Shown here in pieces: positions 2,207 through 45,635 of a stretch of 64,000 nucleotides of DNA. A program made the translations under genes and the position numbers. The DNA is from Halovenus rubra (lineage in GTDB: Archaea; Halobacteriota; Halobacteria; Halobacteriales; Haloarculaceae), in the NCBI RefSeq assembly GCF_026586665.1, contig NZ_JAODIY010000013.1, positions 248,001-312,000 on the forward strand, in the 5' to 3' direction. Position 1 is the stretch's first letter; the number at the start of each line of letters is the position of its first letter. The notes beneath the pieces were generated by a model that saw only the letters and a list, made by a program, of their open reading frames with translations, ran no database searches and was not told the origin of the DNA.

Positions 2207-2962
2207 TTAGTCCCCGTTGACCAGTTCGTCCAGTTCGTTCGCCTGGCTAATCGCGTCGATGACCTTGCTCGCAAGTCCGTCGATGTCGTCGGCGTAGCTC
2301 TGTGTCGTCTCTGCCATTGCATCGATGCTTTCGGAGGTTTTGACGGCGCTGTCTGCGATTTCGTCTAGATCATCGACAGTCTCGGTAATCGAGTCAGTCG
2401 CACTCGCAGTTTTGTCATCGACAGACTCGATGTGTTCGATGGTATCGGCTGTTTCCTCCCGCACGTCCGAAACAATGGTATCAATGTCCGAGGCGTGGTC
2501 CTGGGCCTGTTCGGCGAGAGATTTCACCTCGTCTGCGACGACGGCGAAGCTCTCTCCCTCCTTGCCGACACGGGCGGCTTCGATAGAGGCGTTGAGTGCA
2601 AGCATATTCGTCTGCTCGGCTATCTCGTCGATGAGCGCGGTTATCTCGTCTATCTCGCGCATCGTTTCCCGAAGTGCTTCGAGTTCCTCACACGCGATGC
2701 TGGCGGCCTCCCGTGCCTCACGAACGTCCTGATGGGCCTCGTGAGCTGATGATTGGGCGGTTTCAGCCAGTTGGGCCGTCTCGGAACTCGATTTGTTCGC
2801 AGTCGCGGCGTTACGGGACAGCGAGTCGATGGCGTCGGATGACTCGCTGAGTTCCGAACCAATGACCGACAATAGCTTCGAGTGCTCGGTGGCCAGCTGT
2901 GCCAGTCGCTGTGTGCTTTCGTCTGTCTGTTCTCCCTCGTCCTCAATTGGTTCGGTACTCAT
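2207..2962 (-). CDS. Soluble methyl-accepting chemotaxis transducer domain protein
   Basis: A 251-residue cytoplasmic transducer with no membrane segment. The long coiled coil carries the conserved MCP hairpin tip at about residues 105-155 ([20 protein letters not shown], then [14 protein letters not shown]), which docks CheA and CheW. It lacks HAMP and any recognisable sensor domain; the first 50 residues are acidic and probably helical. Full-length Htr proteins are 450-800 residues, so this is a minimal soluble transducer that may sense a cytoplasmic cue or work with a partner. It lies between two disulfide reductases, with 48 bp to the reductase start downstream, suggesting a link to redox signalling (inference). 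Confidence 0.85.
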
Positions 2963-3071
2963 ATCGTCTCACCTCTGACTGTCTTATTGCTCGGTTTCGC
3001 ATCGATTGTGACTCCGGGTAACCTTGAACTCAGTCGCCCTTTTTGTTCCCGAGTCCCGCTCTCTAACAGTA

Positions 3072-3185
3072 ATGTCCGACGACGAACACGCCTGCAAATG
3101 TGGTGCAACGTTCGACACGCTCGATGAATTGAAAGATCACGCCGAAGAGAACCATCCCGACCTCTACGAGGAGAAATTCGAGTAG
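3072..3185 (+). CDS. 37-residue C2H2-type zinc-finger microprotein
   Basis: A short ORF with ATG at 3072 and TAG at 3183. The product begins MSDDEHACKCGATF and contains Cys8, Cys10, His23 and His28, spaced C-x-C-x12-H-x4-H, close to a single classical C2H2 finger. Such tiny zinc-finger proteins are frequent in haloarchaea and may bind nucleic acid or protein; no specific function is known to me. It sits alone in the gap between divergent neighbours, on the opposite strand to both flanking genes. Confidence 0.6.
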   Translation: MSDDEHACKCGATFDTLDELKDHAEENHPDLYEEKFE

Positions 3186-3240
3186 CGATCGAAAACGTGC
3201 TCGTTGCTTGCCATCGATAATTCCGGTGTCGGTGCATTTC

Positions 3241-4605: not shown

Positions 4606-5025
4606 CTACCACTCCCTCCCCTGCTGGGCGACATCGGCTGAGCCGTCCACATCGCCGGTTGCTTCTTCAACAGCATGTTCGCTTCCCCACTGGACCATTT
4701 CTGTCACCAGTGGCTCCAGTGAGCGGCCTCGTGCCGTCAGTGAGTACTCGACGCGTACGGGTTGGTCGTTGAGAAGTTTCCGCGAGACCAGCCCTTCGGC
4801 CTGTAATTCGTCCAGGCTTTCCGAGAGCATCTTCGACGAGATGCCGTCGACGCGTTCTTTGAGTGCGCTGAATCCGAGCGGACCATCATCGAGGAGGCGA
4901 TAGACCAGAATTGGATGCCACTTCCGGCCGACGATGTCTTGCATCGCACGAAGCGACTGCTGTGCGTCTACGAAACGCGGGAGGTCCACGCTTTGTGCGG
5001 TTCGTGAGGGTAATTCCGAACTCAT
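4606..5025 (-). CDS. HxlR-family winged-helix transcriptional regulator
   Basis: A 139-residue MarR-like winged helix of the HxlR/YodB class, spanning about residues 25-115: IVGRKWHPILVYRLLDDGP, then the recognition region around GISSKMLSESLDELQAEGLV. HxlR proteins often act as local repressors that sense thiol-reactive or oxidant signals through cysteines. Here the start at 5025 excludes the only cysteines (they fall in an upstream extension to 5046), so Cys sensing is doubtful. It directly precedes the disulfide reductase at 3241-4605 with zero spacing, implying autoregulation of a two-gene operon. Confidence 0.85.
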   Translation of the reverse strand: MSSELPSRTAQSVDLPRFVDAQQSLRAMQDIVGRKWHPILVYRLLDDGPLGFSALKERVDGISSKMLSESLDELQAEGLVSRKLLNDQPVRVEYSLTARGRSLEPLVTEMVQWGSEHAVEEATGDVDGSADVAQQGREW

Positions 5026-5109
5026 ACTACAACAGAGAACAGACACCTCTCTTAATCCGACTCTAACGGGTAGTAACCGTACAGGTCACCACAAAATCTA
5101 AATAGTAGT

Positions 5110-5754
5110 CTATTTGGTATCGGGCTCCGCTCGGTGGTCAGCAAACTCTTCCCAGAATACTTCGTCGAGTCGGCCGTCGCCGCCTTCTTTGAGGTAATCC
5201 TCCTTTGTGAGGTTTGCCTGTTCGATGAGTGAGGCGGCTTCACCCGCCCAGACGTAGAATCCGATGAGTGTTTCACGGCGCATCTGGTCCAGATCAACTG
5301 GCTGATACACGTTGACGAAGCCGCCGTCCTCGCGGTTGAGCTGTGAGCGGGTCAGGAGGCCGATCTCATCGAGTTTCTTCAGGTACCTTCGGACGGTACT
5401 TTCTTCGTAGTCGAGTCGCTCGGCGATTTCGTTAGCAGAGAGGGGGCCCTCACCGATGACACAGAGACAGATGTCGAGGCCCGATTTGGGCAGGCCGAAG
5501 GCATCGAGTAACACCTGTCGCAAGTCTGGAGGATTCACGTCCATCGCATACTCTGAGACCCGTTCCATCGGCTCGCCGTGGCAGGTCATGCCGTCCCCAC
5601 AGTCCTGCATCGAGAGGACGATATTCTGACAGTCCGTACACCGGTAGATGCTGTACGGTCGTTCTGTCAGATTCGGATTCGACTGACTCTGATGGTTGAC
5701 GAACTGCTCCCCACCGTGGTCGTGTGCGCCGGGAGTGTTGTTATCCTCAGTCAT
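5110..5754 (-). CDS. Winged-helix regulator with desulforedoxin-like zinc domain
   Basis: A 214-residue protein. Residues about 35-70 form a desulforedoxin-like knuckle (YRCTDCQNIVLSM, then MTCHGEPME) with C-x2-C and a later C-H in place of the usual C-C. This fold binds iron or zinc in desulfoferrodoxins. Residues about 85-155 form a winged helix of TrmB/IclR type (ANEIAERLDYEESTVRRYLK). The C-terminal 60 residues are helical and acidic. The order suggests a metal- or redox-gated DNA-binding regulator (inference). It is the last gene of a probable three-gene minus-strand unit with 5810-6070 and 6079-6510. Confidence 0.7.
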   Translation of the reverse strand: MTEDNNTPGAHDHGGEQFVNHQSQSNPNLTERPYSIYRCTDCQNIVLSMQDCGDGMTCHGEPMERVSEYAMDVNPPDLRQVLLDAFGLPKSGLDICLCVIGEGPLSANEIAERLDYEESTVRRYLKKLDEIGLLTRSQLNREDGGFVNVYQPVDLDQMRRETLIGFYVWAGEAASLIEQANLTKEDYLKEGGDGRLDEVFWEEFADHRAEPDTK

Positions 5755-6078: not shown

Positions 6079-6510
6079 CTACACGATACCAGCACCGATC
6101 ACACCACCCAGGACAGCACCATAAACTAGGTGAAACAACAGGAACTGTGCTACCTGTGGCGGTTCAGGATCCATCGCCAACACGATTTTCATCCAGAATA
6201 CGGCCGCGAAGGCGAACAGGACGAACCCATACGCAAGACCAACGCCGACTGCAGTCACGAGCGTCACCGTCTCGAATCCAACCAACGGAAGCACCACTGC
6301 CAGTGCAACGCCGGCACCCAGTCCGTACAGGAAGTGAAGGACCATCCCCTGCATCATGTAATCAGTCGGCGCACCATCTCCGACGTACTTCGACCAGAAC
6401 GCTGCCGTCGGTGGCGGCGAGTCGTCTCCGAGTGCCATCATCAGCATCGTCATCACGAGTGTTGCGAGCAATCCGCCCGCAACACCGCCGAGTACTGTTA
6501 TTTCTACCAT
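6079..6510 (-). CDS. Four-helix integral membrane protein
   Basis: A 143-residue hydrophobic protein with four predicted membrane helices: GGVAGGLLATLVMTMLMMAL, MVLHFLYGLGAGVALAVVLP, a third around VTAVGVGLAYGFVLFAFAAV, and a C-terminal one around LFHLVYGAVLGGVIGAGIV. I do not recognise the family; function is unknown. ATG 6510 was preferred over 6537 because the helical core begins just after it. It is divergent from the peroxiredoxin at 6663 and shares the intervening control region, which carries two inverted TTAC-type sites. Confidence 0.65.
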   Translation of the reverse strand: MVEITVLGGVAGGLLATLVMTMLMMALGDDSPPPTAAFWSKYVGDGAPTDYMMQGMVLHFLYGLGAGVALAVVLPLVGFETVTLVTAVGVGLAYGFVLFAFAAVFWMKIVLAMDPEPPQVAQFLLFHLVYGAVLGGVIGAGIV

Positions 6511-6541
6511 AGCAACACCTTGGTCAGTCTCGCACATAACT

Positions 6542-6641
6542 GGATATTGAGGTGAGCGTTACCAGCTTACGCCATCGAAACCCGGCAGTGGGTGAGACAA
6601 GCGTAACCCGGTAACGTTCGCGTTCGTGGTAAATTATACGT
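6542..6641. promoter_or_regulatory. Divergent promoter with two inverted TTAC-type sites
   Basis: Between divergent genes there are two copies of the same 15-mer pattern: GTTACCAGCTTACGC at 6558-6572 (plus) and GTTACCGGGTTACGC on the minus strand of 6601-6615. They are 43 bp apart and oppositely oriented. TATA-like boxes follow on each outer side: about 6542-6548 for the leftward gene and ATTATACGT at about 6633-6641 for the peroxiredoxin. Each site is thus about 10-18 bp upstream of its TATA box, a place where archaeal regulators act on TBP/TFB recruitment. Confidence 0.45.
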
Positions 6642-6662
6642 ATCTCTCAGAAATGTTCAACA

Positions 6663-7154
6663 ATGCTCTCGACAGGAAGCGCTGCGCCGAATTTCACACT
6701 GCCTGGAACCAGCCCTGACAGCGACCAGCCAACCGAGTACACACTCTCCGCAGCACTTGAGACTGGTCCGGTCGTCCTGAATTTCTACCTGTTCGACTTC
6801 CACCCGGCCTGTACCGAACACATGTGTGATCTCCACGAGCTTGCTTGGTTCGATCTCAATGACGATGTGACGGTCTTCGGTATCTCTACGGACCGCACGT
6901 TCAGCCACCAGGCGTTCGCCGAGTCCGAAGAGCTCGATATTCGACTCCTCTCGGATAGCGACGGCACGGTGGCCGAGGCGTACGACGCACTCTACGATGA
7001 GTTCAAAGGACACAAGCGAATCGCAAAACGGTCTGTCTACGTCGTCGACACCGCCGGGAATATCGCGTACGCCTGGCAGACCGAGAGTCCACAGGAACAG
7101 CCTGATTGGAGCGAGGTGAGAGACGCGCTGGACAGTCTCGTCGGAACAGCCTGA
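6663..7154 (+). CDS. Peroxiredoxin (AhpC/TSA-Bcp type)
   Basis: A 163-residue thioredoxin-fold peroxidase. The peroxidatic Cys50 lies in FDFHPACTEHMC, with a second cysteine (Cys55) five residues later, the arrangement of 2-Cys Bcp/PrxQ enzymes. It reduces H2O2 or organic peroxides using thioredoxin-like donors (family knowledge). The usual PxxxT/SxxC motif is altered: the Thr/Ser three residues before the Cys is replaced by His, as in its paralogue at 14876. The ATG lies 22-30 bp after the TATA-like box, so the mRNA is probably leaderless. It is divergent from the membrane-protein/regulator unit. Confidence 0.85.
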   Translation: MLSTGSAAPNFTLPGTSPDSDQPTEYTLSAALETGPVVLNFYLFDFHPACTEHMCDLHELAWFDLNDDVTVFGISTDRTFSHQAFAESEELDIRLLSDSDGTVAEAYDALYDEFKGHKRIAKRSVYVVDTAGNIAYAWQTESPQEQPDWSEVRDALDSLVGTA

Positions 7155-7159
7155 TTTGG

Positions 7160-7891
7160 TCAGTCACGTTGAGTCAGTTCCACCCAGTACTCCCCGAACG
7201 GGTTTTCGTAGGGGATGTCGAGTCGGTCGTACACCGTCGCTGGTATCGCGATGTCGGCCAGCCACAGGTCCCAGTCGCCGTCTGCCAGTCCCGTCTTTGG
7301 GAGTGCGAGCGTCAGCACGCGGTCGGATGTGACGGCGACGCCGGGTTCTGCGCCTGTGGTCGCGTTCCGGCCGGTCGGCACATCGAGCGACATGATGAGG
7401 TCAGCCTCGGCCGTTTCGGTCACGAGTTCGGCGGCGAAACCGCCCAGCGCACCACTGAGTCCGTAGCCGACGAGGGCGTCGACGACCAGGCCTGGCTGTG
7501 TGGGGACCGCATCGGGACCGGTGCCCACGGGTACGTCCATCGCCGTCAGTATCTCATATTGTTGTGCTGCGGCTCCCGATAACTTGGCTGGGGTGCGGTC
7601 AAGCACTACTGAGACTGGAACGTCTCGGTTGGCAAGATGCCGGGCACAGGACAGTCCACCGCCACCGTTACCGCCGTCGCCAGCGAGGACAACAACCTGG
7701 TTTCCTTGCTGCATCTCGCGGGCGTGAGCGGCCAGGTTCCGGCCTGCGTTCTCCATCATCTGTCGAAGTGTCAGTCCAACGTCCTCGACAGCAACTCGGT
7801 CGACTGCCCGCATCTCCTCGGCAGTGACGGCGGTCACTTGCTGGCCGCCAGCAGTCTCGAACAGTGTTTCGTTCACACTGATCGTGCCCAC
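7160..7891 (-). CDS. YjeF_N/NAD(P)HX epimerase-like protein, stand-alone
   Basis: A 243-residue Rossmann-like YjeF_N protein: an N-terminal helix region (TAEEMRAVDRVAVEDVGLTL), the nucleotide loop GDGGNGGGGLSCARHLANR at about residues 70-88, and LIMSLDVPTGRNATTG near residue 170. True epimerases have GxGNNGGDG; here the NNGGD is NGGGG, so the conserved Asp is missing. A complete epimerase-dehydratase (nnr) exists at 47047-48486, so this copy probably has another substrate or a binding role. Its first 19 bp overlap the end of the upstream STAS-like gene, indicating cotranscription. Confidence 0.75.
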   Translation of the reverse strand: MGTISVNETLFETAGGQQVTAVTAEEMRAVDRVAVEDVGLTLRQMMENAGRNLAAHAREMQQGNQVVVLAGDGGNGGGGLSCARHLANRDVPVSVVLDRTPAKLSGAAAQQYEILTAMDVPVGTGPDAVPTQPGLVVDALVGYGLSGALGGFAAELVTETAEADLIMSLDVPTGRNATTGAEPGVAVTSDRVLTLALPKTGLADGDWDLWLADIAIPATVYDRLDIPYENPFGEYWVELTQRD

Positions 7892-8247
7892 TCGACAGCC
7901 TCAGTTCGATTTTCAGTCGTCATCGTTTCCAGCCCACCAGTATCGACTTTCCCGCGAAGCGAGATTGCCTTGATCCCGTCGGCGACGACGTCCCACCGCT
8001 CGATACCTGCTTGTTCGGCCCGATGAGCCGATTTCTCCCATACATCGAAGACATCGGCGTTGAATTTATCGTCGAGTTTCACGACTGTTACCATGCCGTC
8101 GATGTCGTGATCTATAAGCAGTTTTTCGAACGTGTCGTACGCTTCGCCAGAGAAGACTGATAGTTCCATCCCCGGGAGAAACTCCCAGACCATGACACCG
8201 TCGTCTAGTTCGACGGTCCAGCCATCGCCGCTGTACGATTCGCTCAT
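7873..8247 (-). CDS. SpoIIAA/STAS-like domain protein
   Basis: A 124-residue acidic protein. Alternating strands and helices (VELDDGVMVWEFLPGMELSV, then HDIDGMVTVVKLDD and GIERWDVVADGIKAISLRGK) resemble the SpoIIAA-like/STAS fold seen in many small haloarchaeal proteins. No catalytic residues are recognisable. ATG 8247 was chosen because the protein core starts there; 8298 would add an unrelated hydrophobic tail. It overlaps the YjeF_N gene by 19 bp, so translation is probably coupled. Confidence 0.6.
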   Translation of the reverse strand: MSESYSGDGWTVELDDGVMVWEFLPGMELSVFSGEAYDTFEKLLIDHDIDGMVTVVKLDDKFNADVFDVWEKSAHRAEQAGIERWDVVADGIKAISLRGKVDTGGLETMTTENRTEAVEWARSV

Positions 8248-8354
8248 AGTACAGTCGACTGGATGTGTGAATAAGTAGGTGACTGACGTGACACTCACTT
8301 GGTTACGTAGGTGTGAGATGGGCTTTTATTGAGTGCTCGCCCATCCGTACCCAT

Positions 8355-8447
8355 ATGGCCCGACCCGACTTGCTCGACATCGACGAGATACCGGTGGAGT
8401 ACCACTACCTGTTCACTGACGAAACTATCCACGAACTGTTCGGATGA
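8355..8447 (+). CDS. 30-residue ORF translationally coupled to the TauE exporter
   Basis: ATG 8355 lies about 33 bp after a TATA-like CTTTTATT (8322-8329) and encodes MARPDLLDIDEIPVEYHYLF plus ten residues. Its TGA (8445-8447) overlaps the ATG of the TauE gene as ATGA. The codon choice and acidic composition look coding. It may be a leader peptide or a small partner of the exporter. I do not recognise a family. Confidence 0.5.
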   Translation: MARPDLLDIDEIPVEYHYLFTDETIHELFG

Positions 8448-9415
8448 GACCAACGACCACAATTGCTGGTGGAACGCTCGTCGTCGGGAGCCTGTTACTG
8501 GCGCTGGCCACCGACCCCGTGGTCGCTGCTGAGGCGGGCAGTGATGCCCCGCCGACTGCCTTCACGATGGACCGCTTCATCGCCCACTGGTGGGTCTTCC
8601 CGGCCGCTATTCTCTTTTCGACCATTGCACTGGCGTCGGGAGTCTCCGGTGCACTCTTTTTCAGTCCATTCTTCATGCTCGGTGTTGGCCTTGCGCCCGC
8701 CCAGGCCATCGGTGCTGGTCTCTTGACCGAGGTGTTCGGGATGGGCAACGGGCTTCGGTCCTACGTCAAGCAGGGTGTCGTCGACTATCGAACGGCGAAG
8801 TGGCTGTTAGCTGGTGCAGTCCCAGCCGTCGTCGTCGGTGCGTTCGCCGCCCACTACGTCGACCCAACACTCCTGAAACTCCTCTTTGGTGCTGGCCTGA
8901 TACTCCTCGGAACCTTCCTCGTCTACTACGACCCGGCTGAGGAGTGTGAACCCGGCGAATCCGAAGGTGAGTACCTCAAAGGGAAAAACGAGGGACGCGG
9001 CACGACAACCATCGAAGCCGCCGACGGCGAGACCTTTACCTACGAAACCTGCTGGCGGCCACCAGGCATTGGCCTCTCGACTGTAGGCGGCTTCATTACC
9101 GGCCTCATCAGTGCTGGCCTGCCCGAGATCGTCACCACACAACTCATCGTTCGGTGTCGCCTGCCACCGCGAGTGGCCGTCGCTACCAGCGTCTTCACGC
9201 TCGCTATCGCCGCCGGTGCGGGCGCGCTCGTCCACGCGCTGACCGCCTCGCCGGTCTGGTACGTCGTCGCGTGGTCGATACCTGGTGTCCTCGTCGGCGG
9301 CACCATCGGTACCCGTGTCGGCAAGTACGTCCCAAGCGACCTGATGGAAGTCGGTCTAGGCATCGTCTTCGCGCTCGTCGGCGCACTCGTTCTCGGCGTC
9401 GAGTTGCTGGCCTGA
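8444..9415 (+). CDS. TauE/SafE-family sulfite or sulfonate exporter
   Basis: A 323-residue polytopic membrane protein of the TauE/SafE (DUF81) family with about eight to nine helices. The two homologous halves are visible: SGVSGALFFSPFFMLGVGLA near the start and STVGGFITGLISAGLPEIVT after a hydrophilic acidic loop of about 60 residues (roughly 160-215). The N-terminus has a hydrophobic signal-like segment ending near VVAAEA. The family moves sulfite, sulfoacetate, taurine and related anions out of cells (family knowledge). The surrounding DsrE, peroxiredoxin and disulfide reductase genes make a sulfur-related role attractive but unproven. Confidence 0.8.
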   Translation: MRPTTTIAGGTLVVGSLLLALATDPVVAAEAGSDAPPTAFTMDRFIAHWWVFPAAILFSTIALASGVSGALFFSPFFMLGVGLAPAQAIGAGLLTEVFGMGNGLRSYVKQGVVDYRTAKWLLAGAVPAVVVGAFAAHYVDPTLLKLLFGAGLILLGTFLVYYDPAEECEPGESEGEYLKGKNEGRGTTTIEAADGETFTYETCWRPPGIGLSTVGGFITGLISAGLPEIVTTQLIVRCRLPPRVAVATSVFTLAIAAGAGALVHALTASPVWYVVAWSIPGVLVGGTIGTRVGKYVPSDLMEVGLGIVFALVGALVLGVELLA

Positions 9416-9422
9416 GCGTGAG

Positions 9423-9459
9423 GTTACCAGCTTACTTCGACGTGAGATACGCCTTTTAT
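9423..9459 (+). promoter_or_regulatory. bdhA promoter with TTAC-type site and TATA box
   Basis: GTTACCAGCTTACTT at 9423-9437 shares 13 of 15 bases with the site at 6558. CCTTTTATCT at about 9451-9460 is a TATA-like element 17-25 bp before the ATG at 9476, so the transcript would be leaderless. The operator again lies about 14 bp upstream of the TATA element. Confidence 0.4.
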
Positions 9460-9475
9460 CTGATGGTATCTCTCA

Positions 9476-10342
9476 ATGGGTGTGACTGACGATTTCGACC
9501 TTACAGCGCCAGAACTGACTCGTGACGACCTCCTCGTACTGGAGGATCCCTACTTCCACACCGATACCGTCGCACTCGTAACAGGGGCTGCCTCGGGTAT
9601 CGGCCGCGCGACTGCCGTCGCCCTCGCCGCGAACGGCCTCACTGTGGTCGGGGCCGACATCGACGAGGACGGTCTCGCCGAGACGACAGCTATCGCTGAG
9701 GACTTCGACGCTCCAGGGACTGTTCACGGCGTCGAGACAGACCTCACCGACGACGAGGATGTGGATGCTGTCGTGGAAGCCGCGGCTGACGAAGGAGACC
9801 TGCGTTTCGTCGCCAACATTGCCGGGATGCAACACATCGATCCCGTCGCCGAGTTTCCGATGGACAAATACGACCTCCTGACTGACATCATGCTCCGTGC
9901 GCCCTTCTACACCGCACAGAAGGCCATCCCACACATTGAAGCCACGGACGACGGCGTCGGTGCAATCGCCAACATGTCTTCGGTACACGGCCACTACGCG
10001 ACACAGGCCAAGCCCGCCTACATCACCGCAAAACACGGTATCACCGGCCTCACTCGTGCAATCGCCGCTGAGGGAGAGGGAACCCTGCGTGGCTTTTCGG
10101 TCTCTGTGGGCTACGTGCTGACGCCGCTGATGGTCGGCCAGATTCAGGAGACCGCCGAAGAACGCGGTATCTCCGAGCAGGAAGTCGTCGAGGACGTAAT
10201 GCTTGGGCAGGCCCGCACGAAAGAGATGATGACGCCCGCAGAGGTTGCCAATCTGTTCGTCTTTGGGTTTTCCGGACATGGCAGTCACCTCAACGGCGCT
10301 GACTTGCTCTGGGACGGCGGCTACACCACCACCTACGAATGA
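9476..10342 (+). CDS. bdhA: SDR dehydrogenase, probable 3-hydroxybutyrate dehydrogenase
   Basis: A 288-residue short-chain dehydrogenase with the cofactor motif TGAASGIG at 36-43, NIAG, a catalytic Ser in NMSSVHGHY and YITAK (YxxxK). The conserved Asp following the second strand (VGADID) favours NAD. In Haloferax mediterranei an SDR of this kind (bdhA) sits immediately upstream of the patatin-like PHA depolymerase gene phaZh1; the same order and a 4-bp ATGA overlap with the patatin gene are seen here. It probably oxidises 3-hydroxybutyrate released from PHA to acetoacetate. The symbol is assigned by synteny and family, not by direct alignment. Confidence 0.7.
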   Translation: MGVTDDFDLTAPELTRDDLLVLEDPYFHTDTVALVTGAASGIGRATAVALAANGLTVVGADIDEDGLAETTAIAEDFDAPGTVHGVETDLTDDEDVDAVVEAAADEGDLRFVANIAGMQHIDPVAEFPMDKYDLLTDIMLRAPFYTAQKAIPHIEATDDGVGAIANMSSVHGHYATQAKPAYITAKHGITGLTRAIAAEGEGTLRGFSVSVGYVLTPLMVGQIQETAEERGISEQEVVEDVMLGQARTKEMMTPAEVANLFVFGFSGHGSHLNGADLLWDGGYTTTYE

Positions 10343-11310
10343 GTGAGCAAACCAACGTCGCCATCGCCTGTCAGGGGGGCGGGAGTCACACCGCCTTCAC
10401 TGCGGGCGTCTTGGAGACAATGTTACTGGAGTGTGACTGGGAGGACGAGTACGAACTGGTGGGTATCAGCGGTGCCTCCGGTGGCGCGTTCAACGCGCTC
10501 GCCGCGTGGTACGGACTGGTTACGGACGGTCCGGAAGTCGCCGCCGATCTCCTGAACGACGTGTGGATGGATCTTTCGGCCTCCGACACCAGTGACCGGA
10601 TGCTGAATTCCTGGCTACAATCAATCAACCGACTGGAGTCAAGTGGAATGCCGTTACCACAGTTTAGCCCCTATCAGATGCCCGGCAAAGAGATTGGGAA
10701 GGAACGCATCCGAAGCGTGCTGGAGTTACACATCAACTTCGATGAGGTCCCTGAGTATTGCCGCGCGTCGGCCCCAGAACTGGTCGTCGGCACCGTCAAC
10801 ATCAACGCTGGCGTCTTCGAGACGTTCACCAACGAGGACGTGACTGTCGACGCCGTCCTCGCGTCCGCGGCCGTTCCCAATATCTTCGAGGCCGTCGAAA
10901 TCAACGGCCATCTCCACTGGGACGGCCTGTTCTCACAGAATCCACCGGTGGGCGACTTGATGCACCAACCGACCGACCGCAAGCCCGACGAACTCTGGAT
11001 CATTCAGATCAACCCTCAGGAACTAGACGGCGAACCGACGAGCGTCGACGAAATCGCTGACCGGCGCAACGAACTCTCGGGGAACATTTCGCTGAATCAG
11101 GAACTAGGATTCATCGAACAAATCAACGACTGGGTTGCCGATGGGACATTGCCCGCGGATAAGTTTACACAGACCGACATCCACCGTATCGAGATGGGCA
11201 AACGCTTCCACTGCTCAACGAAACTCGACCGCGACCCCGAGTTCATCGAGGAACTGATGGACCTCGGTCGGGACCGCGGCGAAACATTCCTTACAAGAGT
11301 CGGAGAGTGA
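10339..11310 (+). CDS. phaZh1: Patatin-like hydrolase, probable PHA depolymerase
   Basis: A 323-residue patatin-family protein. The oxyanion-hole loop (QGGGSHTAF) is at residues 12-20, the nucleophile motif GASGG has Ser47, and the dyad region DGLFSQNP is near residue 197. Catalysis is by a Ser-Asp dyad. PhaZh1 of Haloferax mediterranei is a patatin-like PHA-granule depolymerase encoded next to bdhA; the arrangement here matches. The ATG overlaps the stop of the dehydrogenase (ATGA), so translation is coupled. No PHA synthase genes are visible in the window, so a phospholipase role remains possible. Confidence 0.7.
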   Translation: MSEQTNVAIACQGGGSHTAFTAGVLETMLLECDWEDEYELVGISGASGGAFNALAAWYGLVTDGPEVAADLLNDVWMDLSASDTSDRMLNSWLQSINRLESSGMPLPQFSPYQMPGKEIGKERIRSVLELHINFDEVPEYCRASAPELVVGTVNINAGVFETFTNEDVTVDAVLASAAVPNIFEAVEINGHLHWDGLFSQNPPVGDLMHQPTDRKPDELWIIQINPQELDGEPTSVDEIADRRNELSGNISLNQELGFIEQINDWVADGTLPADKFTQTDIHRIEMGKRFHCSTKLDRDPEFIEELMDLGRDRGETFLTRVGE

Positions 11311-11352
11311 TCGGTGGCGGGCAAATCATGGCAAAACAGCCCGACAGCTAGG

Positions 11353-13602
11353 TTACTGTGGCGGCGTGTCGGACTGACCTGGCAGGCCCCGGCCCTGGTA
11401 GAAGTCGCCGCTCCACTGGCTGATCCAGATTTCCTGGTTCGCGAGATAGAGTGCCGCCTCCGTGTCGAACGTGTCGTCGGTGACAGTCCACTCGCCGGCT
11501 CCAGTATCGTACTCAACCTCTGCGTTGTACACCGCTGCCTGGCCGTGCTCGCCACCGGCCATTGGCGGCAGTGGCAGTGTGTGCTCGGCAGCCTCGTCAC
11601 GTGACGGCGGCCGCTCGGCCCGCTGGAGACGGCCGCGGTTCATCGTCTGGTTGAAGTACTGGGCGTATTTTTCTTTGACGTCCATACCGAGGACGTTCTC
11701 TGCGGCGTTGATGCCTCCAGTGATGTCGCCGGCGTCTCGTGCGGAAATGGTGTATACGTCGTCGTCGACCCCGGATCTGAACGTTCCCGCGTCGCCGTCC
11801 CAGAGATCGTCGAGCAGATAGCCAAGCACTGTCTCGGCGGTACCGGTGTGGTCGACGCCGTCCATTTCTGAGGCCCACAACAGCCCCTGACCGACGATCC
11901 CTTGGGTCGCAGCCTGGTTTGCTGCGCCGTTTTCGACTCGTCCGGAACTGGTCAGACTCTGCTCGATGGCAGCTGCGAGCTGGTTCGCGTAGTCGGCGGC
12001 GGCCTGTCGCTGTTGTTCCCCACCAGCCTGTGGCCCGTAGTAGCCGATGGCTGCGAGCAGTAGTCCCACAGAGCGCGTCGATTCCATCTCGATGACCTCC
12101 GCGGGATCGAACAGATCCATCGTCGTCGTTGCGACACCGTCGGTGATACCCTGGATGCCCACCGGCGGGTCGAAGACTCCATCCCCGCCGGCTTCGACAG
12201 GGATGAGCGGTCGAGGGTTGACATAGCCAAACCAGCCGTTCTGTGCCAGACTGGTTATATCCGAGAGGAACCACACCATCGCAGCGTGGTGGTGGGGCCG
12301 TCTGGTTTTGTCTTCGATTTCCCCCGCTGCGGGGCGGTACTCCGAGAGGAACTCGAAGGAATCGCCATGCGTGAGCGCACCGTTACCCCGCGACCCGCCG
12401 ACGAGTATGCTGGCGTTGATGCCGACCTGCGCGAGCGTGGTCAACAGTTGTGCCCGGAACTTCGCGGCAAGTCCTGGGGGCAGAACATCGAAGTGTGCCT
12501 GGAAATTTTTTGCCCAAGTGATACCCTTGAGGTGAGTCCAAGCCAGCGACGATGGGCTCACGACACCCGAGGATTTGGATTTGTCCCAGGCGAGTGTCTC
12601 GCCGTTTGGCCGCCCGGTGTCGTCCTCGAAGACTGGCTGCTGTGTGAAGTGTGGGTCGCCGCTCGTGAACGCAGCGAACGAGAGGTTCGGATTGTTGATC
12701 GGTGGTCTGTCGGTGTCGGCGGCTTCAAGCATCGCCGGCATCCGGTTTTGTTGCAACTGCTCCATCTGGTCGTTGAGTGGGAACGGCACCCCGTTGCCCG
12801 ACATTGCGATGTTCGTGCTCATGTTGTACAGCGAGTACCAGTACGAATCCCAGGTGGCGTCGCTCCAGCTGTACTGCTGGGTCTCACCGCTGCTCTCGGA
12901 CGTATCGACGCCAGCTATGGAGAGCAACTCGCCGAGATTGGTAGCTGCCGTGCTCGCTTCGACACCGTCCGGCGCGGTGGTTCCGGGTCCGCCGCCCGGC
13001 TCGCCGACGATGACCAGGCCGACCATTCCCAGCCCTTCGTGTGGGCGGCAGTAGTAGTTGTACACCCCTTCTGTCTCGAAGGTGTGGCTGAACGTCTCAC
13101 CCCCAGAGAGAGTCCCGGAGTCGAATGGCTCGGCGCTTTCTGGAATCCGCTGCTGTTTCTCGTTTTCTGGGTGGTACGCCGTCACCGAGTGTGCGCCGTT
13201 CGTGATCGACCAGGTGATCTCTCCACCGGGTTCGAGCCAGACCACCGCTGGCGTGTTGACGTACTGACCCGCACCCTGGTCGGCCTCCAGTGTGATAGCG
13301 TCGACTTCGGCCGAGCTCTGGAGACTGTCCGGACCACCGAGTTGGTCACGGCCTGGGACGGCCTCTCCCCCTTCATCCTCGTCGCCGTTTTCTGACCCAT
13401 TCTCGCCCCCATTTTCACTCCCGTTTTCGCCCCCATTTCCGTCACCGCTCTCCGCGCCGTTTTCGCCCCCATTTCCGTCGTCATTTTCCGCCCCATTCTC
13501 GTCACCGTTCTCTCCCGAGGAGTCCGAGCCAGAACATCCTGCGAGTGCGGCTAGCGCTGCTGCGCTACCCAGTGTAAGTACCTTTCTTCGTTCGTAATCC
13601 AT
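11353..13602 (-). CDS. Tat lipoprotein: halocyanin domain fused to a large unknown domain
   Basis: A 749-residue secreted protein. The N-terminus has a twin-arginine motif (ERRKVLT, residues 4-10) and a lipobox LAGC with Cys23, so it should be anchored to the outer face of the membrane by lipid. Residues about 25-85 are a Gly/Glu/Asn/Ser linker. Residues about 95-205 form a type I copper domain with ligands His in NGAHSVT and Cys, His and Met in YYCRPHEGLGMVG. The remaining 540 residues are not recognised; they are rich in Gln/Asn/Ala with an HHH cluster (RRPHHHAAMVWFL) and look globular and largely helical. Ordinary halocyanins are about 150-200 residues. A membrane-side electron carrier joined to an enzyme is a reasonable guess. 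Confidence 0.75.
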   Translation of the reverse strand: MDYERRKVLTLGSAAALAALAGCSGSDSSGENGDENGAENDDGNGGENGAESGDGNGGENGSENGGENGSENGDEDEGGEAVPGRDQLGGPDSLQSSAEVDAITLEADQGAGQYVNTPAVVWLEPGGEITWSITNGAHSVTAYHPENEKQQRIPESAEPFDSGTLSGGETFSHTFETEGVYNYYCRPHEGLGMVGLVIVGEPGGGPGTTAPDGVEASTAATNLGELLSIAGVDTSESSGETQQYSWSDATWDSYWYSLYNMSTNIAMSGNGVPFPLNDQMEQLQQNRMPAMLEAADTDRPPINNPNLSFAAFTSGDPHFTQQPVFEDDTGRPNGETLAWDKSKSSGVVSPSSLAWTHLKGITWAKNFQAHFDVLPPGLAAKFRAQLLTTLAQVGINASILVGGSRGNGALTHGDSFEFLSEYRPAAGEIEDKTRRPHHHAAMVWFLSDITSLAQNGWFGYVNPRPLIPVEAGGDGVFDPPVGIQGITDGVATTTMDLFDPAEVIEMESTRSVGLLLAAIGYYGPQAGGEQQRQAAADYANQLAAAIEQSLTSSGRVENGAANQAATQGIVGQGLLWASEMDGVDHTGTAETVLGYLLDDLWDGDAGTFRSGVDDDVYTISARDAGDITGGINAAENVLGMDVKEKYAQYFNQTMNRGRLQRAERPPSRDEAAEHTLPLPPMAGGEHGQAAVYNAEVEYDTGAGEWTVTDDTFDTEAALYLANQEIWISQWSGDFYQGRGLPGQSDTPPQ
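13380..13512. repeat. Tandem coding repeat for a Gly/Glu/Asn linker
   Basis: Imperfect short tandem units (variants of TTTTCGCCCCCATTTCCGTC on the plus strand) encode the repeated NGGENGxEN linker of the halocyanin fusion. They form part of the gene, not CRISPR. Such tracts vary in length by slippage and give a flexible tether between lipid anchor and copper domain. Confidence 0.7.
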
Positions 13603-29240: not shown

Positions 29241-29283
29241 TTCTATTGACTTCCTCTCCCAACCTCTTTGAGGTTTGGTCACA
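29241..29283 (-). repeat. IS200/IS605-type end-like hairpin
   Basis: On the minus strand the segment reads CCAAACCTCAAAGAGGTTGG followed by GAGAGGAAGTCAA, a stem-loop with a GGAAGTCAA end. This resembles the right end of haloarchaeal IS200/IS605 elements. No transposase or TnpB is nearby, so it would be a solo end or palindrome-associated relic. Recognition is from memory of such ends. Confidence 0.3.
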
Positions 29284-29304
29284 TACACCACAATATATTT
29301 ACTG

Positions 29305-30837
29305 ATGGAGCTACAGATCACGCCGCCGATGCTCGTCAAGGTGGGTATCTTCTTCCTTACGGCCGGGCTGGCGATCTACGGGATTCGGGTGGGGAGTAAT
29401 CGGAGAAGCAACCGCTCGGAACTCACTGCGTTCGTCGCGTTGATGCTCACAATAGCCTTCTGGGAACTGTTGGGCATCTTGATCGACACTGCGACGACGG
29501 CTGAGGCGAAGTTGCTTGTCACCAACGTCAACAACAGCGTCGCTGCGCCATTGTACCTATTTGCTATAATCTGGTTCGGGCTGGCCTACACCAGCAATGA
29601 CCGGTGGGTGTACCCCTGGTTGGTGACCGTCACGGCCGCCAGCATCGGTCTCATGAGTGTCGTACTCGCCCTCTACCCGGAGTTCTTGTACGAGTCTAAT
29701 GGGTTGGTCACCCGTGGACCCGTGCAGTTTCTGACGGTCACGTTCGAACCGTGGGTCGGACTGGATCGTACCCTCAAGGACTCTTTTCGCGCGTACCAGT
29801 TGTACTCGTACCTCGGTCTGCTGTTCGTTCTGGGTCTCATCGTGCGATATCTGCTCGACAACCGAGATCAGTTACAGATCGGGCAGATCTTCTCACTGAT
29901 CGCCGGAATCAGCGTCCCGCTGGCTGGTAACATGCTGCTGTTCTTCGGGCTGGTCCCGCCGGATATGAACCCGACGGACCTCGCCTTTGGCGTGCTGGCG
30001 CTGTGTTTCGCCGTCGCCATCTTTCGGTACCGACTGTTCGATATCGCCCCACTGGGTCGCCAGCAGGCGATCGAGACGATGACCGATCCGATCGTGATCA
30101 TCGACGACGACGACCGGACGGCAAAGAACGTGGACGGCTCCTCGTTGCCAGAGACGTGACGCGGTTGAAATCGCGCGAACAGGAACTCGATCTGCTGCGG
30201 CAGATCCAGCGACGCGTGCTCAGACACAACCTCCGCAACGACCTGCAAGTGATCCGGAGCCAGAGCGAACTGCTCACACACCGAGGGGAACGAAGACGAA
30301 GTCGCCGAGACGATTATAAAGAAAGCCGATTCACTGCTGTCGATCAGCGACAAGACTCGCACGGCCGAACGCCTCATCGAACAGGACCAGCAGCCGATAC
30401 CACAGGACATCGCCGAGTCCGTTCGTGACGTGGTCGACGCCAACCGGCGTGCGTTTTCGTCCGTCTCCTTCTCACTGTCCTGTCCCGAGGAGTGTCACAT
30501 CAAGACGGTCGGTGCGATGCCACTCGTCGTCGACTACATCGTCGAGAACGCCGCCGAGCACAACGTCGGCCCGTCCCCGTCGGTCACTGTCGACCTCAGC
30601 GAGACGGACGAGACTGTCATCCTCACAATCAGCGACGACGGACCGGGTATTCCAGATCAGGAATTCTCCGCGCTCGATGCAGAGGAGGAAACGCAGTTGA
30701 AACACGCCAGTGGCGTCGGGCTATGGATCGTCCAGTGAATCATCGACACCTCGGCGGCCACCATCGACTTCGAGACGGGAACTGAGGGCACGGCGGTGGC
30801 GATCACGATGCCAGCATCAGACGACCTCGATCGCTGA
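29305..30837 (+). pseudogene. Broken 7TM sensor histidine kinase
   Basis: ATG 29305 opens about 280 codons for an N-terminal seven-helix sensor (LVKVGIFFLTAGLAIYGIRV through FGVLALCFAVAIFRYRLFDI) and the start of a PAS-like segment (TMTDPIVIIDDDD). A frameshift or deletion at about 30105-30125 leads to GRLLVARDVTRLKSREQELD and the phospho-His region VLRHNLRNDLQVIRSQSELL. A second frameshift near 30285 leads to the HATPase (TISDDGPGIPDQEF, GVGLWIVQ), which is then cut by TGA at 30736-30738 before IIDTSAATIDFETG. Most of the PAS domain is missing. Three lesions make it non-functional. Confidence 0.8.
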
Positions 30838-38214: not shown

Positions 38215-39927
38215 ATGAAGTCATCAATTCCTCACGCTGCCGAGACACGGTCAAATCAGTCACTCAAGCAGCGGTACGAAGAAGTTCTCTGGTGGACAAT
38301 GGACCAACTTGGCGTGCTTGAGTCGGTACAGCGAAAAGTCGTCACAGCAGTCTTCTTACAGTTTTTCTCGACAGTTGCAATCTTTGTAATTCCGTTTGTT
38401 TTCTCGGGGACAGCCTGGTATGTCCTTTCAGGATTGTTGTTTCTCGGAGCCTTTGTTGCGATGAGTAATACACTGCTTATCGTGCGACGAGACTTTACCG
38501 AGCCTGTTCTCGAAATTGAGAATGCTGCAGACTCAATTGCACAGGGTGACCTCGACGTGACAATTGAGTCGTCGGCACAAAAAGACGAGATCGGAAACCT
38601 GACAAACGCGTTCGTTGGGATGCAGGAGTATCTAGTCACTGTGTCTGGGCAGGCGGATGCACTCGCTCGCCAGGAGTTCGACGACCCAGCATTGGATGAA
38701 GACGTGCCCGGTGAGTTCGGCGAGTCACTGGGTGAAATGGCCGAGAGTCTGGAGGCATATACGACGGAACTTGAAGAGATGACCGCACAGCTAGAACAAC
38801 GGTCACAGCGTCTTGAGTCACTTGTTGACGCGTTTAGCGACGCGGCTGCACGCGCTCGTGATGGAGACCTGACAGCAACAATCGACAGCGCAGAACTGGA
38901 CCTACAAGACGAGCAGTATATCCAACTGGTAGAGACATATAACGGCCTCCTCAACACGCTCGGCGACACAATCGATGAAGTACAGACGTTCGCCGACGAT
39001 GTTACGGCTGCAAGCAGCGATGCAACAGAGCAGATGGACGAAATCGATACCGCCAGCAGTCAGGTAACACGCTCCATAGAGGAGATTTCGACAGGCGCAG
39101 CCAGACAGACAGAGGACCTGCAAGCAGTCGCTTCGGAAATGAACACGCTTTCAGCAACTGTCGAAGAGATAGCCGCGTCAGCCGACGAGGCTGCCAAGAC
39201 GGCCGGTCAAGCAGCTGAACGGAGCCACGAGGGGCGGGAATCAGCTAAAGAGGCAATTGAGGAACTTGACCAACTCGAAGCAGGTATTAGCCAGACCGCG
39301 ACTGCCGTCGAAGAGTTGGTCGACCAGATTGCCGAGATTGACGAGATTGTCTCGTTTATCGATGAGGTCGCCGAGCAGACCAACTTGCTTGCACTCAACG
39401 CTGGTATCGAAGCTGCCCGTGCTGGTAAGACAGGAGATGGGTTTGCTGTCGTCGCAGACGAAGTCAAAACGCTCGCCGAGGAAACACGTGACTCTGCTGC
39501 TGAAATCCAACAACGCATTGAGGCTGTCCAGTCTGCCTCTACTGAGACTGTCAACGATGTCCAGCACATGGAACAGCAGGTTTCCGGCAGTGTCGATACA
39601 ATCGAGACAACGTTGCACAACTTTGACGATATCGTCGAAGAAGTCAATACGGTCAACACGACAATTCAGGAAATCAGCAACGCGACTGACGACCAGGCCA
39701 AGACGACACAAGAGGTCGTCAAGATGGTAGATGATGTCGCCAGCGTCAGCGAAGAGACAACCAGTGAGGCAGAAAGCGTCGCCACTGCAGCAGCACAACA
39801 GACCACGACGATCTCGGATATGACCGGGAACATCCGACAACTCTCCGGACAGACAACTGACCTCCAAGCGCTGTTAAAGACGTTCACCGTGGAGTCGGAG
39901 AAGGAGGCTCAGCTGGTAACGCCGTGA
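38215..39927 (+). CDS. HtrI-like methyl-accepting transducer without a sensor domain
   Basis: A 570-residue transducer. Two membrane helices lie at about 42-65 and 67-90 (VVTAVFLQFFSTVAIFVIPF, then WYVLSGLLFLGAFVAMSNTL) with only a very short loop between, so there is no extracellular sensor. Then come HAMP domains (EPVLEIENAADSIAQGDLDV and a second near residue 215) and the MCP signalling hairpin (FIDEVAEQTNLLALNAGIEA, then [14 protein letters not shown]). This is the topology of HtrI or short HtrII, which rely on a sensory rhodopsin, or of MpcT, which responds to membrane potential. No opsin gene is in the window. Confidence 0.9.
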   Translation: MKSSIPHAAETRSNQSLKQRYEEVLWWTMDQLGVLESVQRKVVTAVFLQFFSTVAIFVIPFVFSGTAWYVLSGLLFLGAFVAMSNTLLIVRRDFTEPVLEIENAADSIAQGDLDVTIESSAQKDEIGNLTNAFVGMQEYLVTVSGQADALARQEFDDPALDEDVPGEFGESLGEMAESLEAYTTELEEMTAQLEQRSQRLESLVDAFSDAAARARDGDLTATIDSAELDLQDEQYIQLVETYNGLLNTLGDTIDEVQTFADDVTAASSDATEQMDEIDTASSQVTRSIEEISTGAARQTEDLQAVASEMNTLSATVEEIAASADEAAKTAGQAAERSHEGRESAKEAIEELDQLEAGISQTATAVEELVDQIAEIDEIVSFIDEVAEQTNLLALNAGIEAARAGKTGDGFAVVADEVKTLAEETRDSAAEIQQRIEAVQSASTETVNDVQHMEQQVSGSVDTIETTLHNFDDIVEEVNTVNTTIQEISNATDDQAKTTQEVVKMVDDVASVSEETTSEAESVATAAAQQTTTISDMTGNIRQLSGQTTDLQALLKTFTVESEKEAQLVTP

Positions 39928-42174: not shown

Positions 42175-44010
42175 ATGGTACTCGAAACATCAGTTCCCTC
42201 GTTCGGTCTCGCGCTCGCGGCTATTGGCAGCTCCGGTACACTCTTGGGTCTCGTCGTCAAGCACAGAGGGAAGCCAACCGCCCGGCCGATGATTGGGCTT
42301 GCAGCTATGCTGTTTTTTACATCGATAATCCACTTGTGTCACGTTCATTTCACACCGACACATGAGTGGCTTGCACAGGCCGTCGGGAGTGAGTTTGCAG
42401 AGGTGTACTGGATTGCTGTTCTGTTTGTCAGTTACGTCCCGATTCTCGGACTCTGGACCGTGTTTGCTTTCGAGTATACTGGCCGTGGAGCGTCGGTGAC
42501 GCGGTTGCTTGGCATAATATTTATTGGTCTGTTTCTCGCACAGATTGGCTCGCTTGTTCTTGCCATTACCGGCGGTGGGATCGAACTTGCGTTCACCCTT
42601 GCGTTCACCCAGGCGATTCTGGTTGGTATTGTCCTCGTAGCACTGATTCTTGCCATCATCGGCATATTCCTCATTATCGATGAATCAACGAGGTTGGGGT
42701 CACTTATGTTCAGGGAAGCACTGGTCCTCTCCAGTGGCGCGGGTGCACTTGTTGTTGGGGCCTGGCTCTTTTTTCCATTCGCCGAACCGCCAGTATTCAC
42801 AGGGTCGGTGTTGTCGAGTAGCTTGATTTTTATATTCGCAATTCGTCACTACGCGGTGTTTGAGTCGCTGCCGGTCGCTAGTGTTCTGGGTCGGGACCGT
42901 GTTATCGACGAGATGGCAGAAGCTGTCGTCGTTGTCGGCAAGGATGAAACGATTCAGGACGTAAATCCGGCTGTTGTCTCACTGTTTGACCGAGAGCGCA
43001 ACGAGATGGTCGGCAACGAGTGGGGGACACTGTTTTCCTCGGAACGGTCCTGCCGAGAGATGGCCCAAACAAACAGTCCGGACAGAATCCAGCTAGCTGG
43101 GTCTGTGTTGTCGGTAACAGTGAGTGAGGTACGCGACGAGAGTGGACGGTTACTTGGCTATCTGGTGGTCTGTCAAGATGTAACCGACCGTCGAGAGCGC
43201 GAACAACGTCTGGCGGTTCTTAACCGCTTTCTTGTCGATGCTGTGTCCGACAGAATGGGTGATGTTGCGACAGATGCTGACAGGCTAGCTTCGAACCCGA
43301 CAGCTGGCAACAAGAAGACAGCAGAGCGTGGAAGCAATATCTGGTCAACAACAACAAACATCACTAAACTGCTTGCGTACGTCAGGGAGATAGAGCGGGC
43401 TCTGGCGGCCGATGATGAACAACGAAGCGACGCCAGTGCAGTCATCCACCGCGTCGCAGACTCGGTTTCTAGGGCGAACGACTCGCCGGCACTCAAAGTA
43501 ACGAAAACTGCACCTGTACCAATAAAGTCTGCACTGCTTGAGTCAACCGTAGAATTGCTCGTAACAAGAGCGTTCCAACTACCATCGGATTCACTACTGT
43601 TGACCGTTAAATCGACCGATAAAGCAGTTACCATCTCCATCACAAACAAACAGGACACCGTCGATGAAAATGCGCGTCGTCAGCCACTTGATGAGCTGTC
43701 GGTCCAGCTTGTCCGACTGACCATCGAGTCTGCCGGCGGCTCAGTTAGTACGAATAACATTGGAGTGCCAGCCAACAATGACCACTCTAGCAGAGAAGCT
43801 GTCCAGACAACAGTAACACGACCTGACACAGAAAGAGAGGCTGTCGCGACGTCAGGCAAGCCAGACGACAGACAGCGAGTCACGGTTACGTTACCAGCAA
43901 TCGATGGCGTTGAGTCGTCCGAGCCGTCAGCACCCTCCCCCGAGACCATGGCAGACACTACAGAGCAGTCCGACCAGCCCAGCGGACACACGGACGGTGA
44001 ACAGCCGTGA
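42175..44010 (+). CDS. 7TM-PAS protein with degenerate kinase core (pseudokinase)
   Basis: A 611-residue protein. Seven membrane helices occupy about 1-225 (haloarchaeal 7TM sensor type), followed by PAS (RVIDEMAEAVVVVGKDETIQ to GYLVVCQDVTDRREREQR). Where HisKA should carry RH-N-LRN it reads LNRFLVDAVSDRMGDVATDA, so no phosphorylatable His is present. The HATPase region lacks the N box (LLESTVELLVTRAFQ) and the DxGxG box (SITNKQDTVDE). The C-terminal 100 residues are a low-complexity Ser/Pro/Thr/Asp tail. It overlaps by 4 bp an intact 7TM kinase gene, so it may be a receptor partner or regulator of that kinase. Confidence 0.75.
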   Translation: MVLETSVPSFGLALAAIGSSGTLLGLVVKHRGKPTARPMIGLAAMLFFTSIIHLCHVHFTPTHEWLAQAVGSEFAEVYWIAVLFVSYVPILGLWTVFAFEYTGRGASVTRLLGIIFIGLFLAQIGSLVLAITGGGIELAFTLAFTQAILVGIVLVALILAIIGIFLIIDESTRLGSLMFREALVLSSGAGALVVGAWLFFPFAEPPVFTGSVLSSSLIFIFAIRHYAVFESLPVASVLGRDRVIDEMAEAVVVVGKDETIQDVNPAVVSLFDRERNEMVGNEWGTLFSSERSCREMAQTNSPDRIQLAGSVLSVTVSEVRDESGRLLGYLVVCQDVTDRREREQRLAVLNRFLVDAVSDRMGDVATDADRLASNPTAGNKKTAERGSNIWSTTTNITKLLAYVREIERALAADDEQRSDASAVIHRVADSVSRANDSPALKVTKTAPVPIKSALLESTVELLVTRAFQLPSDSLLLTVKSTDKAVTISITNKQDTVDENARRQPLDELSVQLVRLTIESAGGSVSTNNIGVPANNDHSSREAVQTTVTRPDTEREAVATSGKPDDRQRVTVTLPAIDGVESSEPSAPSPETMADTTEQSDQPSGHTDGEQP

Positions 44011-45635
44011 ACGACATAGTATTGTCGACAATGGGGATAGCCAGTATTGGGCTCCACTGCTGGCTCTCCATCTACGCGGTGCAGCGTCGGGACCGGCCGG
44101 GAGCCCTTCCGCTGACGTTGCTCGGTGCGGCGTTGACAGCCGCAAGTTTGATATTGACACTTGACATTGTCGCCAATCTATCCGTACTCAACTTCTTTGG
44201 CCAAGCGCTTGTGTTTGCGACAGTTCTGTGGACTGCATTCACCCTCGAATATACGGGTCGAGGGCCAGCAATGACGAGAAACCGGCTCATCGGGCTGCTT
44301 GGCCTGTCAACCGTTATCGTCGTGTTACAGGTGCTCATTATCTACGTATTCTCTCCCGGGTTCCCGTACTGGCTGTTTATATCCGCGTCAAACATCACAG
44401 TCATCTCTACAGGCGGGTTTGGGATATTCCTCGTTGTCCGCTCAGGTGTTACCTACGACGACCTTCCGCTGGTCCGCGCACTTGTCGTTGCAGGAACCGG
44501 CGTTTCCATTGTTTTTATTTGGATTGCTGGGATAATTCTGGGCGAGCGACTCCAGTTCGACTCTGTGTTTCGGACAGTCATTACTGTCCTGTTGGTCTCT
44601 AGCGGTGGGCTATTCGCTCTTGCTCAGTATCGTTACGACCTGCTCGAAGCTGACCCGAGTGCAGGTCACCTCGCACGCAACACTATCTTTGACGAGATGG
44701 CTGAAGCCGTTATTGTTTCAGACCGACAACAGCAACTCTTAGACAGCAATCGAACGGCCGAGCAGGTTTTCGATATCGGCCCAGCCGTACTCGGCGAACC
44801 AATTGTGGATGTCATCGGTACCTCACTTGCGCCGTATGATGGCGAGACAATCACCATACCCGGTCGAGACGGGAGACGGGAGTACGAGGTTCGACAGTCG
44901 CCTGTCAAAGGGAGCACAGAGAAGTCGGTCGGGACAGTCTACATGCTTAGAGATGTAACTGACCAGCAGACACACGAACAGCAACTGGCGGTCCTCAACA
45001 GAGTGTTGCGTCATAACCTGCGCAACGATTTTGACTCAATCCGAGGGTTTGCAGAGCCGATTCGGGACGGGAACACGACCGTCGACGAGACGGTTGCGTT
45101 CAGCAAACGAATCCGTGACTCAGCACACCGAATCAGAGACCTTGGCCAAAAAGTGTCCCACGCAGAACGATTGCTTGAATGGGAGCCACTCGACCGCAAT
45201 CAGATTGACCTCGTCGCTGTCTCGGAGTCAGTCGCAGACCAGATGGAAAGCAAATACCCTGATTCGTCTGTCGACGTGTCGGTCTTGAAGCGACCACTAC
45301 AGGCGCGCACCGACAGAGAAACAATCACTGCCGTTATCGAAGAACTCGTCGACAACAGCCTAAAACATCGGCAAGAAGCGGGTGGGAAAGTCAACATCGA
45401 GCTGGGAAAAGCAAATGGCGAGATTGCGATTGTTATCCGCGACGATGGACCGGGAATTCCAGAACACGAGCGAGCAGTGCTTCTCGACGGAGAAGAGACG
45501 CCACTACGCCATGGCACTGGCATCGGCCTCTGGTTCGTTTACTGGGGAATACGGCGACTCGGTGGAACACTCTCCTTTGCCGAAAACAAGCCACAAGGCA
45601 GTGTTGTAACCGTACAACTCCCGACTGTTGACTGA
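44007..45635 (+). CDS. 7TM-PAS sensor histidine kinase, intact
   Basis: A 542-residue kinase. Seven membrane helices (about 1-220) and a PAS domain (NTIFDEMAEAVIVSDRQQQL) precede HisKA with LNRVLRHNLRNDFDSIRGFA and a full HATPase: N box VIEELVDNSLKHR, G1 IRDDGPGIPEHE and G2 HGTGIGLWFVYWGIRRLGG. It is the paralogue of the upstream pseudokinase with the same domain order and is linked to it by an ATGA overlap. It autophosphorylates on the His of RHNLRN (family knowledge). No receiver gene is adjacent. Confidence 0.88.
   Translation: MNDIVLSTMGIASIGLHCWLSIYAVQRRDRPGALPLTLLGAALTAASLILTLDIVANLSVLNFFGQALVFATVLWTAFTLEYTGRGPAMTRNRLIGLLGLSTVIVVLQVLIIYVFSPGFPYWLFISASNITVISTGGFGIFLVVRSGVTYDDLPLVRALVVAGTGVSIVFIWIAGIILGERLQFDSVFRTVITVLLVSSGGLFALAQYRYDLLEADPSAGHLARNTIFDEMAEAVIVSDRQQQLLDSNRTAEQVFDIGPAVLGEPIVDVIGTSLAPYDGETITIPGRDGRREYEVRQSPVKGSTEKSVGTVYMLRDVTDQQTHEQQLAVLNRVLRHNLRNDFDSIRGFAEPIRDGNTTVDETVAFSKRIRDSAHRIRDLGQKVSHAERLLEWEPLDRNQIDLVAVSESVADQMESKYPDSSVDVSVLKRPLQARTDRETITAVIEELVDNSLKHRQEAGGKVNIELGKANGEIAIVIRDDGPGIPEHERAVLLDGEETPLRHGTGIGLWFVYWGIRRLGGTLSFAENKPQGSVVTVQLPTVD

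Follow-up and report, generated by a model that had tools for sequence, protein, structure and literature searches.

An overlapping pair of genes for 7TM-PAS proteins

The window (the whole stretch of 64,000 nucleotides of Halovenus rubra DNA that was analysed) carries two overlapping genes on its forward strand, gene A at 42175-44010 (+) and gene B at 44007-45635 (+). Gene A starts with ATG and encodes a protein of 611 aa that we classify as a 7TM-PAS-pseudo-histidine kinase from its ORF, Pfam matches, alignment and AlphaFold2 model; gene B starts with GTG and encodes a 7TM-PAS-histidine kinase of 542 aa with intact H, N, G1 and G2 boxes. The two proteins are paralogues (27% over 440 aa, E 6e-22). 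Both match the HisKA_7TM family of Pfam (PF16927, cut-off 28.6), A with 32.1 bits and B with 31.5 bits, and the PAS match in A is also above its cut-off. HATPase_c is found in B with E 3e-17 and the HisKA match in B is sub-threshold, while Pfam gave no match to HisKA or HATPase_c in A.

The N-terminal part of A contains seven transmembrane helices of the HisKA_7TM family (42193-42849, +; residues 7-225) and a PAS domain (42892-43179, +; about residues 240-335), both located by Pfam and the AlphaFold2 model. These are followed by two regions assigned by alignment and model: a DHp-like helical hairpin without a phospho-acceptor (43183-43407, +; residues 337-411) and a degenerate GHKL/CA-like domain that lacks the N, G1 and G2 motifs and the ATP lid (43411-43902, +; residues 413-576). 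The AlphaFold2 model of A includes all four parts with a mean pLDDT of 82, and its CA-like domain matches the CA domain of NRII (1r62; Z 14.9, 119 residues, rmsd 2.5). The model of B also has seven transmembrane helices. In a comparison by VIA-align the 7TM region of A reached Z 17 as a candidate relative of class C GPCRs, but helical models with no clear relatives score about 14 and we claim no such relationship.

In B, the predicted phospho-acceptor histidine H336 is encoded at 45012-45014 (+) and the CA (HATPase_c) domain at 45192-45626 (+; Pfam and model). The residue of A at the position of H336 is D355 (43237-43239, +), and none of the catalytic residues of B (H336, N450, D479, G481, G505, G507) is matched in A in the alignment. 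By their His, N, G1 and G2 boxes, B and its homologues are predicted to be active sensor histidine kinases. A has neither the phospho-acceptor His nor the N-box Asn, its G boxes are gone, and it does not qualify as an active histidine kinase; with the DHp hairpin and the GHKL fold kept in the predicted structure and the catalytic residues lost, it is classed as a pseudo-histidine kinase. An earlier note on this DNA had described a 7TM-PAS-kinase architecture common to both proteins, in agreement with the ORFs, Pfam and the models, and had reported that A lost the phospho-His and nucleotide boxes while keeping its sensor and PAS domains, as Pfam and the alignment also indicate. The 4-bp gene overlap that it had pointed out is the GTGA at 44007-44010 (+), which holds the start of B and the stop of A, and a Shine-Dalgarno-like site for B, GGTGA, lies inside the end of A at 43996-44000 (+).

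Catalytic loss and joint inheritance in haloarchaea

The search for homologues of A covered relatives and 293 genomes of the order. The phospho-acceptor His is absent from all 30 aligned A homologues, which have E (n = 10), D (n = 9), G (n = 9), S (n = 1) or a gap (n = 1) at this position; the N-box Asn is likewise absent from 30 out of 30, and G1 and G2 are degraded. The 25 aligned B proteins all keep the His, the catalytic Asn, the G1 Asp and both G2 Gly, and the sole box change among them is a G to A in G1 of one sequence. The loss of the motifs in A is not due to chance, since it is seen in 30/30 A homologues and 0/25 Bs, and in view of the agreement of the 30 homologues we rejected a frameshift or assembly artefact as its cause. 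A-B pairs occur in five haloarchaeal family-level groups, and a sixth has a divergent form. Three loci of this sixth group (f4; L123, L153 and L157) each have a divergent pair of one dead and one live 7TM kinase, joined by the same 4-bp junction, which suggests that the A-B system extends beyond the main set.

Among the 293 genomes of the order we found 20 A loci in 19 genomes at 334 bits or more (next best 196) and 20 B loci at 453 bits or more (next best 378), and the 20 A loci are the 20 B loci, with the two genes adjacent. There are 22 A-B pairs in 146 genomes of the family. Unpaired genes were observed twice, A in G016 and B in G011, in both cases at contig ends; in G011 a fragment resembling A lies at the edge of another contig. 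Many genomes of the order sample have no A. In a thin sample of 197 genomes of the phylum, which apparently includes few or no genomes of the A-bearing groups and so bears little on how far A extends, no A was found outside the window's genome at E 1e-60. A plasmid search returned paralogues only, and a search of the genome contigs with A returned only a short unrelated match. Absence or breakage of A in close relatives, which the earlier note had named as evidence against its reading, was not borne out: the near-complete congeners without A (G007 and G013) have no B either, and no broken A beside an intact B was seen among the homologous loci. The distribution, which that note had proposed to check across haloarchaea, supports the inheritance of A and B together in several families.

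The junction of the two genes is also conserved. In 28 of 30 loci the TGA stop of A forms part of an ATGA or GTGA in which B can start; one of the remaining junctions has a 1-bp overlap and the other, in an incomplete genome (L038), has neither overlap. A Shine-Dalgarno-like 4-mer is found just before the B start in 28/30 junctions as compared to 16% of background positions. Later in-frame starts of B are available 11 (TTG) and 20 (ATG) bases past the A stop, but it is the overlap start that the relatives have in common. The arrangement suggests that A and B are translationally coupled. The branch lengths of A and B are correlated given the regulator distances (partial r 0.78), a value that is weak evidence and no proof of contact because the two genes are tightly linked.

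To place A among its paralogues we built an unrooted tree of A, B and single 7TM kinases linked to the same regulators from the 7TM, PAS and DHp regions. The A proteins form one group apart from B and the single kinases, with a support of 100 on the branch holding B and the singles and low support deep within A. As A is one clade, the catalytic loss looks like a single event; it is ancient and fixed. The window's genome also contains a tandem pair of two active 7TM-PAS kinases (L121, G000:C1:70000-79000, 2457-5628, -), which may resemble the arrangement that preceded the catalytic loss.

Values of dN/dS were obtained by the Nei-Gojobori method for the closest pairs and are rough for these GC-rich genes; they are about 0.25-0.37 for A versus 0.12-0.30 for B. 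Within A, the sensor and PAS regions mostly have values of 0.15-0.23 (single values up to 0.44), and the CA remnant has values of 0.35-0.68 in pairs with unsaturated dS. These values support purifying selection on A, which appears to be maintained mainly for its sensor, PAS domain and dimer helices, with a weakly constrained CA remnant. The earlier note, which had named dN/dS on A as a check, reasoned from the fully open frame that the loss of the motifs is selected; cross-family conservation and dN/dS bear out the selection, but an open frame alone is no proof of it.

The elevated dN/dS of the CA remnant and the many genomes without A could be read as signs that A is a duplicate of B that is decaying and will be lost. 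Frames that are open across at least five families after one ancient origin, a sensor and PAS domain constrained like those of B, and one-to-one retention with B make such decay very improbable. A broken 7TM kinase gene looks different and has an interrupted frame: at 29275-30738 (+) of the window a second 7TM-PAS-histidine kinase gene is spread over three frames (29275-30159, 30003-30428 and 30430-30738) and is apparently a pseudogene or an assembly frameshift, in contrast with A.

The HalX regulator cluster

In relatives, the genes near the pair include a conserved set that encodes a PAS histidine kinase, a PAS-GAF-BAT-HTH_10 protein, a REC-HalX response regulator and a winged-helix protein. 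The winged-helix gene is divergent from the HalX regulator gene, and both are usually found just upstream of A-B. With an E of 1e-65 or better as the threshold for orthologues, the HalX regulator is present in 19/19 A-positive versus 32/274 A-negative genomes (Fisher p about 1e-16, a figure that ignores shared ancestry). The four-gene cluster is present in most of the HalX-positive genomes examined, with or without A-B. The earlier note did not mention the linked HalX cluster.

The window's genome has the HalX cluster on another contig, C43, with the regulator at C43:29380-29955 and the winged-helix gene adjoining it; the linkage of the window's own pair to HalX thus rests on the relatives. 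Positions 6378-13238 of locus L141 (G000:C43:23000-42000) hold the genes of the PAS histidine kinase, the Bat-type HTH_10 protein, the REC-HalX regulator and the winged-helix protein. The A-B pair of the window adjoins hflX, an arrangement common to the two closest relatives (G001 and G003). Upstream of the pair, at 38215-39927 (+), is a gene for a HAMP-MCP transducer, a homologue of which is likewise upstream in the two closest relatives (L034 and L035). About a dozen loci have a gene for a Tat-type lipoprotein-like family of about 450 aa downstream of B (among them L039, L105-L110, L162 and L163), which at L041 (10448-11887) overlaps B by 4 bp; this family has no Pfam or NCBIfam match.

A single active 7TM-PAS kinase replaces the pair at the same cluster in L144, L145, L147, L156, L159, L160 and L161, which are from A-negative genomes or are other loci. 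A borderline B match in G351 (387 bits) is also a single active kinase adjoining this regulator cluster. Because L144, L145, L147, L159 and L161 run one active kinase and no A, A is dispensable for such a circuit in general.

Conserved regions of A and a candidate two-subunit receptor

We compared the column information of A and B region by region. The two are alike in the 7TM region (2.26 bits in A versus 2.26 bits in B), the PAS domain (2.45 versus 2.47) and DHp helix 2 (2.52 versus 2.54), and A is somewhat lower in the coiled coil before DHp (3.09 versus 3.45). The information in A falls to 2.19 bits versus 3.71 in B in the His/docking half of DHp helix 1, and to 1.80 versus 3.01 in the nucleotide-binding part (G1-lid-G2). 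This pattern fits the one expected for a subunit that would sense and pair, with no ATP binding and no regulator docking. Dimer helices that are kept beside an ATP site that is lost and a docking face that is apparently lost would match control of B by pairing; the pattern is compatible with A-B and A-A dimers alike. The proposal of the earlier note, in which a dead kinase controls a live one by heterodimerisation, is partly supported: the fixed catalytic loss, the purifying selection on A and the joint inheritance speak for it, while the heterodimer and an activating or inhibiting effect of A on B are putative.

Since the preserved DHp helices would permit homodimers too, A may act as a homodimer in its own right, its CA domain repurposed for a new ligand or for the winged-helix factor, with B a separate kinase of the same operon. 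The winged-helix gene is usually directly upstream of A, as such a role would have it. We consider this unlikely, as A and B remain paired in genomes with the winged-helix gene at another place (the window's genome and G020) and the CA remnant is the least constrained part of A, which would not be expected of a domain that had gained a new, conserved function. Alternatively, the dead transmitter core of A could bind a response regulator such as HalX and relay to B, so that information flows backward through A. The well-studied pseudo-histidine kinase DivL of Caulobacter does so: it senses DivK~P and controls CckA (PMC4211667), and the transmitter-core fold is retained in the model of A. DivL, in which the His is changed to Tyr, otherwise keeps its H, N, G1, F and G2 boxes together with its docking surface (PMC4211667), whereas A has lost its boxes and has little information in the docking half of DHp helix 1 as compared to B; we therefore regard relay through A as improbable.

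The reading that we prefer, and hold to be moderately probable, is that A, as a dedicated partner, pairs with B and gates the phosphorylation of the HalX regulator by B. Joint inheritance, overlapping genes and the conservation pattern make a dedicated partner the best reading of A. Comparison of the homologues bears out the catalytic loss with its single ancient origin, the joint inheritance, the overlapping junctions, the constraint on A, and the linkage and co-occurrence with HalX; from these we infer contact between A and B, phosphotransfer to the HalX regulator and the direction of control. In this view a single haloarchaeal two-component receptor would have A and B as its two membrane subunits, translationally coupled and paired through their 7TM, coiled-coil and DHp helices. 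A would respond to a stimulus of its own and report it by switching B between a kinase and a non-kinase state. B, as the only subunit able to bind ATP and carry phosphate, would pass the phosphate to the REC-HalX response regulator, which may work with the divergently encoded winged-helix factor and the Bat-type transcription factor. An A-B dimer can work as an active gated receptor provided that B phosphorylates in cis; phosphorylation in trans would leave the A-B dimer unable to phosphorylate, and A would then inhibit by titration. Against gating of B by A stand the frequency of adjacency and 4-bp overlaps in operons, the genomes in which a single active 7TM kinase, in the absence of A, serves this regulator cluster, the separate contig of the HalX cluster in the window's genome, and the near-complete congeners that lack both genes.

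Taken further by analogy, the pair may be an obligate heteromeric archaeal 7TM receptor in which a dead subunit senses a distinct signal and gates a live kinase, a GABA-B-like division of labour that arose once in haloarchaea and serves as HalX/Bat membrane input across several families; we offer this as a tentative proposal that is somewhat doubtful. On sequence grounds the A-B pair would attach a membrane input to the HalX output domain, the function of which was called undocumented in a 2018 archaeal census (PMC5847659). The 30 dead/live pairs, probably of single origin, exist beside genomes in which one live kinase serves the same cluster, a natural replication in which it can be asked directly what the dead subunit adds.

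A few bacteria provide cases in which a dead histidine kinase controls a live one; our literature search found no description of a haloarchaeal histidine-kinase pseudokinase, and an archaeal case of such control is undescribed in the literature searched. The consulted part of the 2018 census mentions HisKA_7TM sensors and tandem duplications, with no dead kinases or A-B pair (PMC5847659). Like DivL, which controls a live kinase (PMC4211667), A combines a PAS domain with a predicted DHp-CA fold that would have no kinase activity; unlike DivL, it has lost all boxes, has a 7TM sensor and overlaps the gene of a live paralogue. In Pseudomonas, the sensor kinase RetS controls another, GacS, through a heterodimer (reviewed in PMC6944256). 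In contrast to this bacterial system, A is an archaeal 7TM pseudokinase whose gene accompanies that of its target, and the heterodimer is putative. A CA-dead pseudokinase variant of the Corynebacterium histidine kinase ChrS alters signalling through its live paralogue HrrS (PMC9491836); this variant is a frameshift mutant from laboratory evolution, whereas A is an ancient conserved protein. By its domains B is an ordinary member of the haloarchaeal HisKA_7TM-PAS histidine kinases, and A, which shares their sensor and PAS domain, differs from them in being catalytically dead and in forming a separate clade.
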